Shown here one piece after another: positions 24,683-28,624 of a stretch of DNA of 28,624 nt. The notes below the pieces were generated by a model. It saw only the letters and a program-made list of their open reading frames with translations, was not told the origin of the DNA and made no database searches. Position numbers and translations under genes: made by a program. Position 1 is the first letter of the stretch. Each line of letters begins with the position of its first letter. The stretch comes from a virus, in the IMG/VR virus record IMGVR_UViG_3300046804_000492, positions 1 through 28,624 of that record. One strand, given 5' to 3'.

Positions 24683-25264
24683 TTAGCTATACTCAAAGGG
24701 TGTATCAGGATCACTGTAATCAACATCAATGGTCATACCCTTAACATTGTCATATTCCTGATAGTATGTTTCGTTTGGCATCAATACCCTAAACTGTTCT
24801 CCGTATTTAAGAGTAAGAAAGGTTACATCTGACTTATTCAGTATGTCACAAATAACAAATCCTGTAGCACATCGTCCTAAGATATTCTTAAAAGGGCTGT
24901 GCTTAACTTCATTGTTTTGCAATGCTATATGAATTTCAGTACGAGGTCTAAACATGATACGAGTTATGCCTAGCTTTTGATTGCGTAGACGGAACTTGTC
25001 GTAGATTGTTAGTTCGGTGAGTGTTGCTTCGTTCTGCTCGTTGATAACTACCAACGCATTTTTGAACTTGAGTGAACCTTTTGTGTGTGAATTGTCTGGG
25101 GTCTCTTTTGTACTCCAATGTAGCTGTGCGTCTACATGATTCACATAGTATGTCTCGCCATGAAATTTTAAGACCCACATGGGAATGGTCTCGTCTTGTA
25201 AGTGTGCTTTATTAAAGTGGAAGACTACCTCTTTACATGCGAATTCAATCTATTGTTGTGTCAT
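24683..25264 (-). CDS. Conserved T4-like phage protein with an in-frame UAG at codon 5 (stop-codon recoding)
   Basis: The ATG at 25264-25262 has an excellent ribosome site (AAAGGAG, 7 bases upstream) and a TATAAATA late box. The frame reads M-T-Q-Q-[TAG]-I-E-F-A-C-K-E-V-V-F and then runs open through MWVLKFHGETYY to a TAA at 24683: 193 codons, with the TAG at 25252-25250. The 30 codons between the TAG and the next ATG (25180) contain no stop and look like true protein. The latter ATG lacks a ribosome site and would delete part of a continuous domain. The sequence resembles a conserved protein of T4-like cyanophages and pelagiphages (recalled pattern, not searched). The window's CUA-anticodon tRNA could decode the TAG. 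Two CAA codons precede it, so Gln is a natural guess for the inserted residue. A sequencing or assembly error is the main alternative. Confidence 0.8.
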
Positions 25265-25291
25265 TTTGTTTCTCCTTTATTATGACATTAA

Positions 25292-25320: not shown

Positions 25321-25581
25321 TCATTTCTGTTTACTGTTGATTTCAGGGACGGGTTCGCCGCTTACTGGATCAAGAGTTGGGGCAATCTTTGATGCTTCTT
25401 CTGGAGTTAAGAATCTAGGTTGTTCATTAAACCAGTGAGGAGTAAATGACCATCCGAAACTCTTCCAATACTTGTGGATAAGATTGTTAGCAACTATAGT
25501 TGCCGCAAGAATAATTAGCAATCCCATTGCATAGAGGATACTGCCTGCTAAAAAGACAGCCGCATTATCCATATCCATCAT
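25321..25581 (-). CDS. Single-pass membrane protein, unknown function
   Basis: 86 residues, ATG at 25581 overlapping the rubredoxin TGA (ATGA). A hydrophobic segment (AVFLAGSILYAMGLLIILAATIVANNLI, residues about 8-35) is followed by a Trp-rich interface stretch (YWKSFGWSFTPHWF) and a Pro/Glu/Lys-rich cytosolic or periplasmic tail. Coupling to the rubredoxin gene hints at a membrane-associated redox function, but no cofactor motif is visible. Confidence 0.75.
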   Translation of the reverse strand: MMDMDNAAVFLAGSILYAMGLLIILAATIVANNLIHKYWKSFGWSFTPHWFNEQPRFLTPEEASKIAPTLDPVSGEPVPEINSKQK

Positions 25582-25706
25582 AGAGCCTCGTAATCCTCTT
25601 TACCTACGCCGCATTCAGGGCATTCAAATGTATCGGGAAGTTCATCCCATTTGCCTTCAGTTGCTTCATCGTGAACGTGTCCACATACAATACAAACGTG
25701 ATCCAT
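25578..25706 (-). CDS. Rubredoxin-type iron protein, 42 residues
   Basis: ATG at 25706 overlaps the rubrerythrin TAA (TAATG). The 42 residues contain CIVCG near the start and CPECGVGKEDYE near the end, the two CxxC(G) knuckles of rubredoxin that hold a single Fe(SCys)4 centre. The usual length is about 52, so the loop between the knuckles is shortened (HVHDEATEGKWDELPDTFE between). Rubredoxin is the normal electron donor to rubrerythrin, encoded immediately upstream. Together they would form a small peroxide-reducing system. Confidence 0.88.
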   Translation of the reverse strand: MDHVCIVCGHVHDEATEGKWDELPDTFECPECGVGKEDYEAL

Positions 25707-26155
25707 TATAGTGAGTCCTTTACTTGTTGATATGCTTCTGCATGACGCTTTTCTACTTTTTGTAGTGCGGCGAAACGCTTCTCTGCTTTCTTAAGAACTG
25801 CTTGAAATTGCTCCGCATGTTCTTTAGATTCTTGGATTTGATGTTGCGCTTCTAATTGAGCCTGAACATTACCCTCATGCTCTGCGGCACGATGGAATTC
25901 AGGATACATTGTAGTGAATTCGTAAGTTTCACCTTCGATTGCTTTCTCTAAGCATTCTTTGGTACTTGGCTTACCAATCAACAATTCTAAGTGACCCCAT
26001 GCGTGTAGCAATTCTTGGTCAGCGGTGTGTTCAAAATGTTTTGCAACATCTTCAAAGCCTTCAGCACGTGCAAGTTTCGCAAAGTAGCGATACTTGATGT
26101 GTGCCATGCTTTCACCTGCTAGTGCGCTTTCTAGATTTTTTAGTGTCAACGACAT
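25706..26155 (-). CDS. Rubrerythrin-like diiron protein (no C-terminal rubredoxin domain)
   Basis: 149 residues, four-helix bundle of the ferritin-like class. Helix motifs carry the two diiron ligand sets: GESMAH (E in helix 1), TADQELLHAWGH (ExxH), EGETYEF and YPEFHRAAEHEG, then QESKEHAEQF (ExxH). Rubrerythrins reduce hydrogen peroxide. Here the rubredoxin domain normally fused at the C-terminus is a separate gene that overlaps its stop. ATG at 26155 with AAAGGAAC upstream. It overlaps the 3' end of the preceding gene by 44 bases. Confidence 0.9.
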   Translation of the reverse strand: MSLTLKNLESALAGESMAHIKYRYFAKLARAEGFEDVAKHFEHTADQELLHAWGHLELLIGKPSTKECLEKAIEGETYEFTTMYPEFHRAAEHEGNVQAQLEAQHQIQESKEHAEQFQAVLKKAEKRFAALQKVEKRHAEAYQQVKDSL

Positions 26156-26552
26156 TAGTAGTTCCTTTTAATGATTTAAGTCGGTCGAGTAAAGATTCTG
26201 TCTTAGTGACTTCTTTCACAACCTTCTTGGGTTTTTGGTGCGCTTGATGGGAATCGAACCCACTACGTACTGGTTTAGAATCAGTTGCCCCTGCCTTCGG
26301 GACTTCAAGCGCAATTTCTTTCAAACGAGACACCTCGTGATGTTTTGTAATTATAACATGTTTTACTTCATCGTCAATCTTAATGGGCAAATCAAGATGA
26401 ACTGTGATGAAGGGACCATCAGTCTCATTAAGTTGGTTATCGTTACCAACTGTACCGATGAAGGGTATGCCTTGATAGCGTCCTAAGATTCTATCTCCTA
26501 GGTGGTAGGTTGCTTTATAACTAACTGAGGCAAAATATTCTTCATAGGTCAT
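26112..26552 (-). CDS. Conserved-type phage protein whose frame runs through a tRNA gene
   Basis: 146 residues, ATG at 26552 overlapping the upstream small gene. Residues 1-80 look like a real folded protein (YFASVSYKATYHLGDRILG, IPFIGTVGNDNQL, DGPFITVHLDLPI, VKHVIITKHHEV). Residues about 81-106 are the translation of a tRNA gene on the same strand (26236-26312), and the frame stays open into a Lys-rich tail (KPKKVVKEV to KKSRKRTSR) that overlaps rubrerythrin. The ancestral protein probably ended near the tRNA, and the tail may be a by-product or a genuine extension. Function unknown. Confidence 0.65.
   Translation of the reverse strand: MTYEEYFASVSYKATYHLGDRILGRYQGIPFIGTVGNDNQLNETDGPFITVHLDLPIKIDDEVKHVIITKHHEVSRLKEIALEVPKAGATDSKPVRSGFDSHQAHQKPKKVVKEVTKTESLLDRLKSLKGTTNVVDTKKSRKRTSR
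26236..26312 (-). tRNA. tRNA with CUA anticodon (amber-decoding / suppressor type)
   Basis: 77 bases with encoded CCA. Acceptor stem GCGCTTG/CAAGCGC pairs 7 of 7, A73. T arm GTGGG-TTCGATT-CCCAT (one G.T pair). Anticodon arm ACTGA-TTCTAAA-CCAGT: four pairs plus an A.C mismatch at 31.39; loop U33, anticodon C34-U35-A36, A37. The anticodon CUA pairs with UAG. D arm GTCCC-GAAGGCA-GGGGC keeps the GG pair but has an unusually long stem and A8 rather than U8. Short 5-base variable region (ACGTA), so not a Leu/Ser/Tyr class II tRNA. The amino acid is unknown. It lies within the coding frame of 26112-26552. Confidence 0.88.
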
Positions 26553-28048: not shown

Positions 28049-28204
28049 GAGTTTCTGTTACGAGGTATGTCTTACCCTAGGCAACTCACGCTGCCAATGC
28101 GTAAACGGAATCGTTTGCGTCTATTTTGTTTTCTTCTTTTTACATCGTTGCTGATGTGCTGTCCACTCTGTTACTCTTTGCCCTGTCGAAACCATGGCAG
28201 GCCC
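28048..28204 (-). ncRNA. ssrA: Coding piece of a permuted two-piece tmRNA
   Basis: Starts GGGCCTG (28204-28198), which pairs with CAGGTCC of the acceptor piece, including G3.U70. Then GGTTTCGACAGG, the conserved tRNA-like D-loop substitute of tmRNA. An ACATC/GATGT stem comes before the A-rich resume region AAAATAGAC. The tag frame (28118-28086) reads GCA AAC GAT TCC GTT TAC GCA TTG GCA GCG TGA: ANDSVYALAA, ending in the ALAA degron that ClpXP recognises. A TGAGTT/AACTCA pairing closes the region after the tag. The 3' boundary is approximate. tmRNA rescues ribosomes stalled on broken mRNA and tags the product. Confidence 0.92.
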
Positions 28205-28217
28205 ATCATAAAGAAAC

Positions 28218-28532
28218 TTACTTGACTTTGACAATAGTAACAGTACCATTGTCGTAATCAATTAAATCTACCATACCAGGATAGCGTTGCTTCAATGCAA
28301 TATCAAAACGATTAAATTCTTCAATTGCATTATCGTCATACGCCATTAATGCTTGTGCATCTTCTGGTGTAATATTTAATGAAGCCATGATCCAATCGGC
28401 AGGATTAGGTGCGTCTTGTTCTTCATCTAGACCTTCGTCTTGAATGGAATTCCAAACACTTCTTGTAACTGGTTGCCAATTTAACTTAGCAATCTGTCCC
28501 AAGTATCCCGATGTTAGTTCACTTATCTTCAT
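28218..28532 (-). CDS. Protein gene lying between the two halves of the tmRNA
   Basis: 104 residues from the ATG at 28532, with AAGGAAG ending only four bases earlier and starting one base after the tmRNA acceptor CCA. The sequence MKISELTSGYLGQIAKLNW, the acidic middle (QDEGLDEEQDAPNPADWIM) and the beta-type C-terminus (LIDYDNGTVTIVKVK) look like a genuine protein. The stop TAA lies 13 bases before the coding-piece 5' end. Function unknown. Its mRNA would be released from the tmRNA precursor by processing at both ends. Confidence 0.8.
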   Translation of the reverse strand: MKISELTSGYLGQIAKLNWQPVTRSVWNSIQDEGLDEEQDAPNPADWIMASLNITPEDAQALMAYDDNAIEEFNRFDIALKQRYPGMVDLIDYDNGTVTIVKVK

Positions 28533-28544
28533 CAAACTTCCTTA

Positions 28545-28624
28545 TGGTGGACCTGGCGGGAGTCGAACCCGCGTCCAGAACACTTTTCTCTTTGCTTCAT
28601 ACAGCAATAACTTATATTCTACGT
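28545..28624 (-). ncRNA. ssrA: Acceptor piece of a permuted two-piece tmRNA (partial, runs off the window)
   Basis: Minus strand ends GGACGCGGGTTCGACTCC then CGCCAGGTCCACCA: T-arm GCGGG-TTCGACT-CCCGC, 3' acceptor strand CAGGTCC, A73 and encoded CCA at 28547-28545. This is nearly identical to the bacterial tmRNA 3' end. Upstream, TGCTGT and TGTTCT can pair with ACAGCA and AGAGTA of the coding piece as helix P2. It lies 5' of the coding piece on the same strand, i.e. in permuted order. Its own 5' end lies beyond the window. Confidence 0.92.

Follow-up and report, generated by a model that had tools for sequence, protein, structure and literature searches.

The stretch of DNA analysed here (the window; 28,624 nucleotides, positions 1 to 28,624 of IMG/VR virus record IMGVR_UViG_3300046804_000492) carries a tRNA gene with the anticodon CUA, an open reading frame (ORF) that runs in frame through this tRNA, and, about 1 kb downstream of the tRNA, a gene with an in-frame UAG close to its start, here called the client gene. 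The features are as follows.

26236..26312, minus strand: tRNA, anticodon CUA, with an A31.C39 mismatch, encoded CCA and discriminator A73 (ARAGORN, Rfam RF00005, compensatory changes).
26112..26552, minus strand: ORF of 146 aa, in frame through the tRNA (108 relatives; same arrangement in six lineages).
24683..25264, minus strand: client gene with UAG at codon 5, M T Q Q [UAG] I E F A C K E V V F H F N K and onward (conservation directly after the UAG).
25250..25252, minus strand: in-frame UAG codon of the client gene, followed by AUU (UAG in 57/57 distinct homologues).
25265..25280, minus strand: Shine-Dalgarno region ATAAAGGAGAAACAAA of the client gene (spacing to the ATG kept).

The record is a fragment of a T4-like phage, with relatives of terminase, UvsX and gp32, as a sequence-only reading of the same DNA had proposed. 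The proteobacterial host named in that reading is likewise supported and is probably a betaproteobacterium, since a permuted tmRNA lies near the tRNA and beta-type tmRNAs are found in relatives. Phage-encoded permuted tmRNAs occur in the window (28086-28606, minus), in the related contig L002 (1544-2027) and in other carriers, recurring near the CUA tRNA in many of them; the intervening segment of the window's tmRNA holds a 105-aa ORF (28218-28535) without known family. The ORF that bears the tRNA overlaps the start of a phage rubrerythrin gene immediately downstream (25706-26155, minus), which has a short rubredoxin-like ORF (about 25580-25709, minus) beside it.

ARAGORN called a tRNA-CUA at exactly 26236-26312 on the minus strand, and Rfam RF00005 gave it 42.9 bits, where the gathering score is 29 (E = 3.9e-6, whole window); it is the sole tRNA present in the 28.6-kb record. 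Both calls agree with the earlier prediction of a phage tRNA that reads UAG, and the 7/7 acceptor stem, the loop TTCTAAA, the T arm and the encoded CCA were all as first described (GCGCTTG AA GTCC... ACTGA TTCTAAA CCAGT ... CAAGCGC A CCA). An anticodon loop slipped by one base, giving UCU (Arg), would leave the stem unpaired and was rejected; the CUA assignment held. The irregularities pointed out before are also real, namely the A.C at pair 31-39, an A instead of U at position 8, and an unusual D arm. Stem changes are compensatory in the relatives L002, L007, L013, L128 and L243, and between the window and L002, L007, L128 and L243 the acceptor, D and anticodon stems are altered on both sides with the structure kept. 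All 53 distinct related tRNAs start with GCG and end with CGC-A73 and an encoded CCA. Pair 31-39 is mismatched (C.A, A.C or C.C) in 46 of these 53, versus 5 of 140 other tRNAs from the same loci; a pattern with A31 and C39 fixed served to find part of the window's family, but the trend is not circular, since the search with the client protein supplied most members. Opened anticodon stems have been reported to favour stop-codon reading, there at the top pair 27-43 (PMC13092985). The gene at 26236-26312 is thus a real tRNA, predicted from its letters to read UAG. The sequence-only reading had not remarked on the same-strand ORF around it or on the in-frame UAG gene farther downstream.

The 146-aa ORF that contains the tRNA consists of a conserved N-terminal domain (about 80 aa), a linker of 25 codons encoded by the tRNA, and the tail SLLDRLKSLKG. 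A wider search returned 108 relatives of the protein, most of them 79-113 aa long and without a tRNA. The same layout, with the tRNA in frame and a tail ending in [ST]LL[DE][RN]LK.LKG, is found in six lineages (the window, L002, L007, L013, L128 and L243), among which L002 encodes an 81% identical protein with the embedded tRNA and compensatory stem changes. Beyond the tRNA the tail has pN/pS values mostly below 0.5, and L013 and L128 differ there by five third-position changes and one first-position change; the tail is conserved as protein, so translation probably continues across the tRNA sequence. Third codon positions hold 49% of the differences inside the tRNA and 36% in free relatives, a small contrast that is suggestive only. 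A structure model of the protein is folded and confident over residues 1-80 and of low confidence from residue 81, with a short helix in the tail (121-128). In the window's clade, a single RNA stretch may thus both encode a flexible linker and fold into a tRNA, and in the open-access literature searched we found no tRNA encoded in frame within a protein-coding gene.

The client gene was first exposed by reading downstream of related free CUA tRNAs, where an ATG, a few codons, TAG and ATT GA. precede a conserved protein. In the window it begins ATG (25264) ACA CAA CAA TAG ATT GAA, with AAAGGAG as a good Shine-Dalgarno site before the ATG; in the standard ORF list the gene opens too late, at the Met within MWVLK. 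Searching with an alignment of 11 members gave 294 relatives; 80 of these were retrieved, and every homologue reaching the 5' end (78 loci, 57 distinct sequences) has UAG at the same site, with no second UAG in any of the 78 genes. In all 57 distinct homologues an A follows the UAG, the codon being ATT in 49, ATC in five and ATA in three. By comparison, among the 90 codon columns after the UAG only four hold a single codon (ATG, TGG, AAA, TGG), and three of these encode the one-codon residues Met and Trp. Protein conservation starts right after the UAG, with I, E and then VVFHFNK (11 aligned relatives; 78 loci), which indicates that the stretch is translated. An in-frame stop with protein-level conservation beyond it is one feature expected of programmed stop codon readthrough. 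The distance from ATG to UAG varies from one to eight codons (UAG 2-9 codons into the gene), and the Shine-Dalgarno site stays near the ATG. In the isolate Rhizobium phage RHph_I1_18 the client domain reads MSEFM[UAG]NESC and is directly followed by tRNA-Pyl(cta); this UAG-bearing domain (L330 3001-3204) is unannotated, though it lies beside the annotated tRNA. Pfam, PHROGs, PDB and BFVD gave no family, fold or function for the client, and the patterns used found no relatives in bacterial or archaeal genomes. A 'freshwater-2' Rfam match upstream of the client was set aside, as it scores below the cut-off; the single locus with a passing match has it elsewhere. Phosso (L331) and Atu_ph07 (L332) carry the client domain without a UAG, in a fusion that begins with another N-terminus; the gene after it looks like a kinase-phosphatase in both, and Phosso also has an annotated peptidyl-tRNA hydrolase gene nearby.

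ARAGORN placed a CUA tRNA within 6 kb of the client in 68 of the 80 fetched loci. The remaining 12 comprise seven cut at the client, two with a CUA tRNA (in L268 it was identified with Rfam and by reading; in L274 it lies about 9 kb from the client) and three fragments of 11-21 kb in which none was seen (L279, L284 and L286), so that 70 of the 73 loci not cut at the client carry one. Seven related large phage records have no client gene, and no CUA tRNA was seen in their scanned parts (G010 and G012 were scanned only partly). In G013 (364 kb), the main array of 45 tRNAs includes no CUA, but a separate CUA tRNA sits beside a UAG-bearing client. G002, G003 and G005 (44, 135 and 133 kb) yielded no tRNA other than the CUA one; G001 (33 kb) has the CUA tRNA and one further weak Rfam match. 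Atu_ph07, whose client domain lacks the UAG, has no CUA among the 30 tRNAs scanned.

From the tRNA, the UAG gene, the invariance of its UAG, the co-occurrence of the two and the ORF overlap, all of which can be read in the sequences, we infer charging, readthrough and a gating role. At a probability of about 0.8, we propose a phage tRNA dedicated to gating one gene through programmed readthrough of UAG, with the code itself left unchanged. The tRNA would be the reading half of a two-part module with the client gene: once made and charged, presumably by a host synthetase, it would compete with the host release factor 1 (RF1) at the client's one invariant UAG. Without the tRNA, translation of the client would end after a few residues, making client expression dependent on tRNA accumulation, and a build-up of the tRNA would allow the client to be made, as an amber gate or timer. 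A UAG followed by A is a context that favours suppression. Gating is favoured by the invariance of the UAG (one standing for an ordinary residue should drift to sense codons), by the conservation after it, the linkage to the tRNA, the lone tRNAs of G002, G003 and G005, the lack of any other recurrent start-proximal UAG gene in five carrier records, the Shine-Dalgarno site on the ATG, and the arrangement in RHph_I1_18. Against it stand the three client contigs in which no CUA tRNA was seen, the continued use of UAG as a stop in 3.5% of genes, and a client without recognised family or fold. Suppressor tRNAs of phages, and readthrough, have precedents; the open-access literature searched yielded no tRNA reserved for a single gene with an invariant UAG near its start.

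The main rival reading, which we consider quite improbable, is that a very short upstream ORF stops at the UAG and translation of the protein re-initiates at the following AUU, the tRNA being unrelated. AUU is known as a weak start codon in bacteria (infC), and it follows the UAG in 49 of the 57 distinct homologues; the other eight, however, have AUC or AUA, and RHph_I1_18 has AAC. Re-initiation is further at odds with a Shine-Dalgarno site that tracks the ATG and not the AUU, and it leaves unexplained both the near-perfect association with the CUA tRNA and the fact that the stop is always UAG, never UAA or UGA.

A pyrrolysine-like special residue needed at the site would also account for an invariant UAG and a dedicated tRNA, as with the UAG of mttB and tRNA-Pyl; this would be kept for chemistry instead of regulation. 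The discriminator of tRNA-Pyl is G73, and all 53 relatives here have A73. A search that recovered 14 of 14 positive controls gave no class II core of the PF01409 (PylRS) type in seven carrier records, of which several are fragments; a host enzyme, or one of an unfamiliar kind, could still do the charging. The site lies only 2-9 codons into the protein, behind variable residues. We regard this explanation as very improbable.

The sequence-only reading had also raised a reassignment of UAG in the phage's code, often to glutamine. Neither part is borne out: UAG still stops, coding density is not raised when UAG is read as sense (code 15), only one recurrent start-proximal UAG gene was seen, and glutamine is not shown, the discriminator being A73 in 53/53 relatives. 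Genome-wide reassignment, as known from some crAss-like phages, fits the presence of a CUA tRNA and the lower share of UAG stops in client-bearing phages (3.5% of genes, versus 6.5% in relatives lacking the client; p = 0.003 by Fisher's test, the loci being partly redundant). Several clear genes nevertheless terminate in UAG, and a scan for start-proximal UAG in five carrier records (28-135 kb) returned the client as the only recurrent match. The phage shares the CUA anticodon with recoded code 15 phages, but not their many in-frame-UAG genes or improved density. Some UAG-ended genes in frame with the next look like cases of UAG overlapping a Shine-Dalgarno site. One of them, a DnaE-like gene in G003 and G005 with the next gene in frame, was considered for readthrough and rejected, its UAG being probably ordinary because it overlaps the Shine-Dalgarno site (TAGGAG). 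Reassignment across the genome is therefore largely refuted and, in our judgement, highly improbable.

That the tRNA is unused in translation (a decoy, integration scar or relic), its in-frame position in the ORF being chance, has a near-negligible probability: the non-U position 8 and odd D arm of the window's copy would fit, against compensatory stem changes across relatives, invariant ends with A73-CCA in 53/53, linkage to the UAG gene, and a translated sequence past the tRNA that is conserved as protein.

Programmed readthrough of a start-proximal UAG may extend to a second arrangement. A pattern search gave eight contigs in which a CUA tRNA precedes MEK.SA[UAG]IRPP-stop and, after that, another gene. 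More broadly, short leader ORFs with an in-frame UAG followed by Ile and ending Pro-Pro-stop were seen directly downstream of a CUA tRNA in L019, L058, L245, L374-L378, L075, L380 and L379, the next gene beginning M[CS]IELKIK in most. Two of these are isolates: DSS3_MAL1 (L380), with the leader MKS[UAG]IRPPP-stop, and BUCT-ZZ01 (L379), with MGGDAS[UAG]INLKPP-stop and a CUA loop visible upstream. We would put at even odds the broader idea that amber-tRNA gating is a general form of phage gene control, acting on a single UAG gene in one group and on a ribosome-stalling leader in another. Other groups of CUA tRNAs (L036, L042, L043, L069, L070 and phage DLP_5) showed no start-proximal UAG gene beside the tRNA. 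Phosso has two CUA tRNAs (L414 6731-6806 and L418 484-559) without an obvious start-proximal UAG gene adjoining, and these are not explained by the gating model.

CUA tRNAs occur in many phages whose genomes are not recoded, and here the sequence alone suggests a purpose, a single target gene. That client is conserved across many phages and is usually misannotated, either started late, as in the window, or omitted, as in RHph_I1_18, a warning that standard gene callers miss start-proximal UAG genes. Phage control by stop-codon readthrough becomes directly testable in cultured phages. If the model is true, the tRNA would in some phages control a ribosome-stalling leader M..[UAG]I..PP-stop before another gene, and in the window's clade the regulator tRNA would itself be embedded in frame in a protein-coding gene.

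Among known systems, the pyrrolysine system resembles the present one in pairing a dedicated tRNA-CUA with a conserved in-frame UAG in specific genes (there methylamine methyltransferases), and ARAGORN labels the tRNA-CUA here 'Pyl'; the pyrrolysine system differs in that A73, an ordinary cloverleaf and a UAG at the very start of the gene are found here. Stop-reading tRNAs with a 4-bp anticodon stem (PMC13092985) share a broken anticodon-stem pair, there the top pair 27-43 and here pair 31-39, next to the loop. The jumbo phage RsoM2USA offers another suppressor tRNA in a phage of a betaproteobacterium, and its report names no target gene for the CUA tRNA (PMC8504454). Recoded (code 15) gut phages carry suppressor tRNAs, some with theta ribozymes (PMC10879173), and code 15 has proteomic proof (PMC9523058); no theta-type ribozyme was found at the window's tRNA. 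As in those phages, a phage tRNA-CUA is read here as overcoming termination for certain phage genes, with the tRNA level proposed as the switch in both cases (PMC10879173). Unlike the gut phages, with their many recoded late genes, the carriers described here are aquatic T4-like phages of probable betaproteobacterial hosts, in which UAG remains a stop elsewhere and one gene has one invariant UAG.
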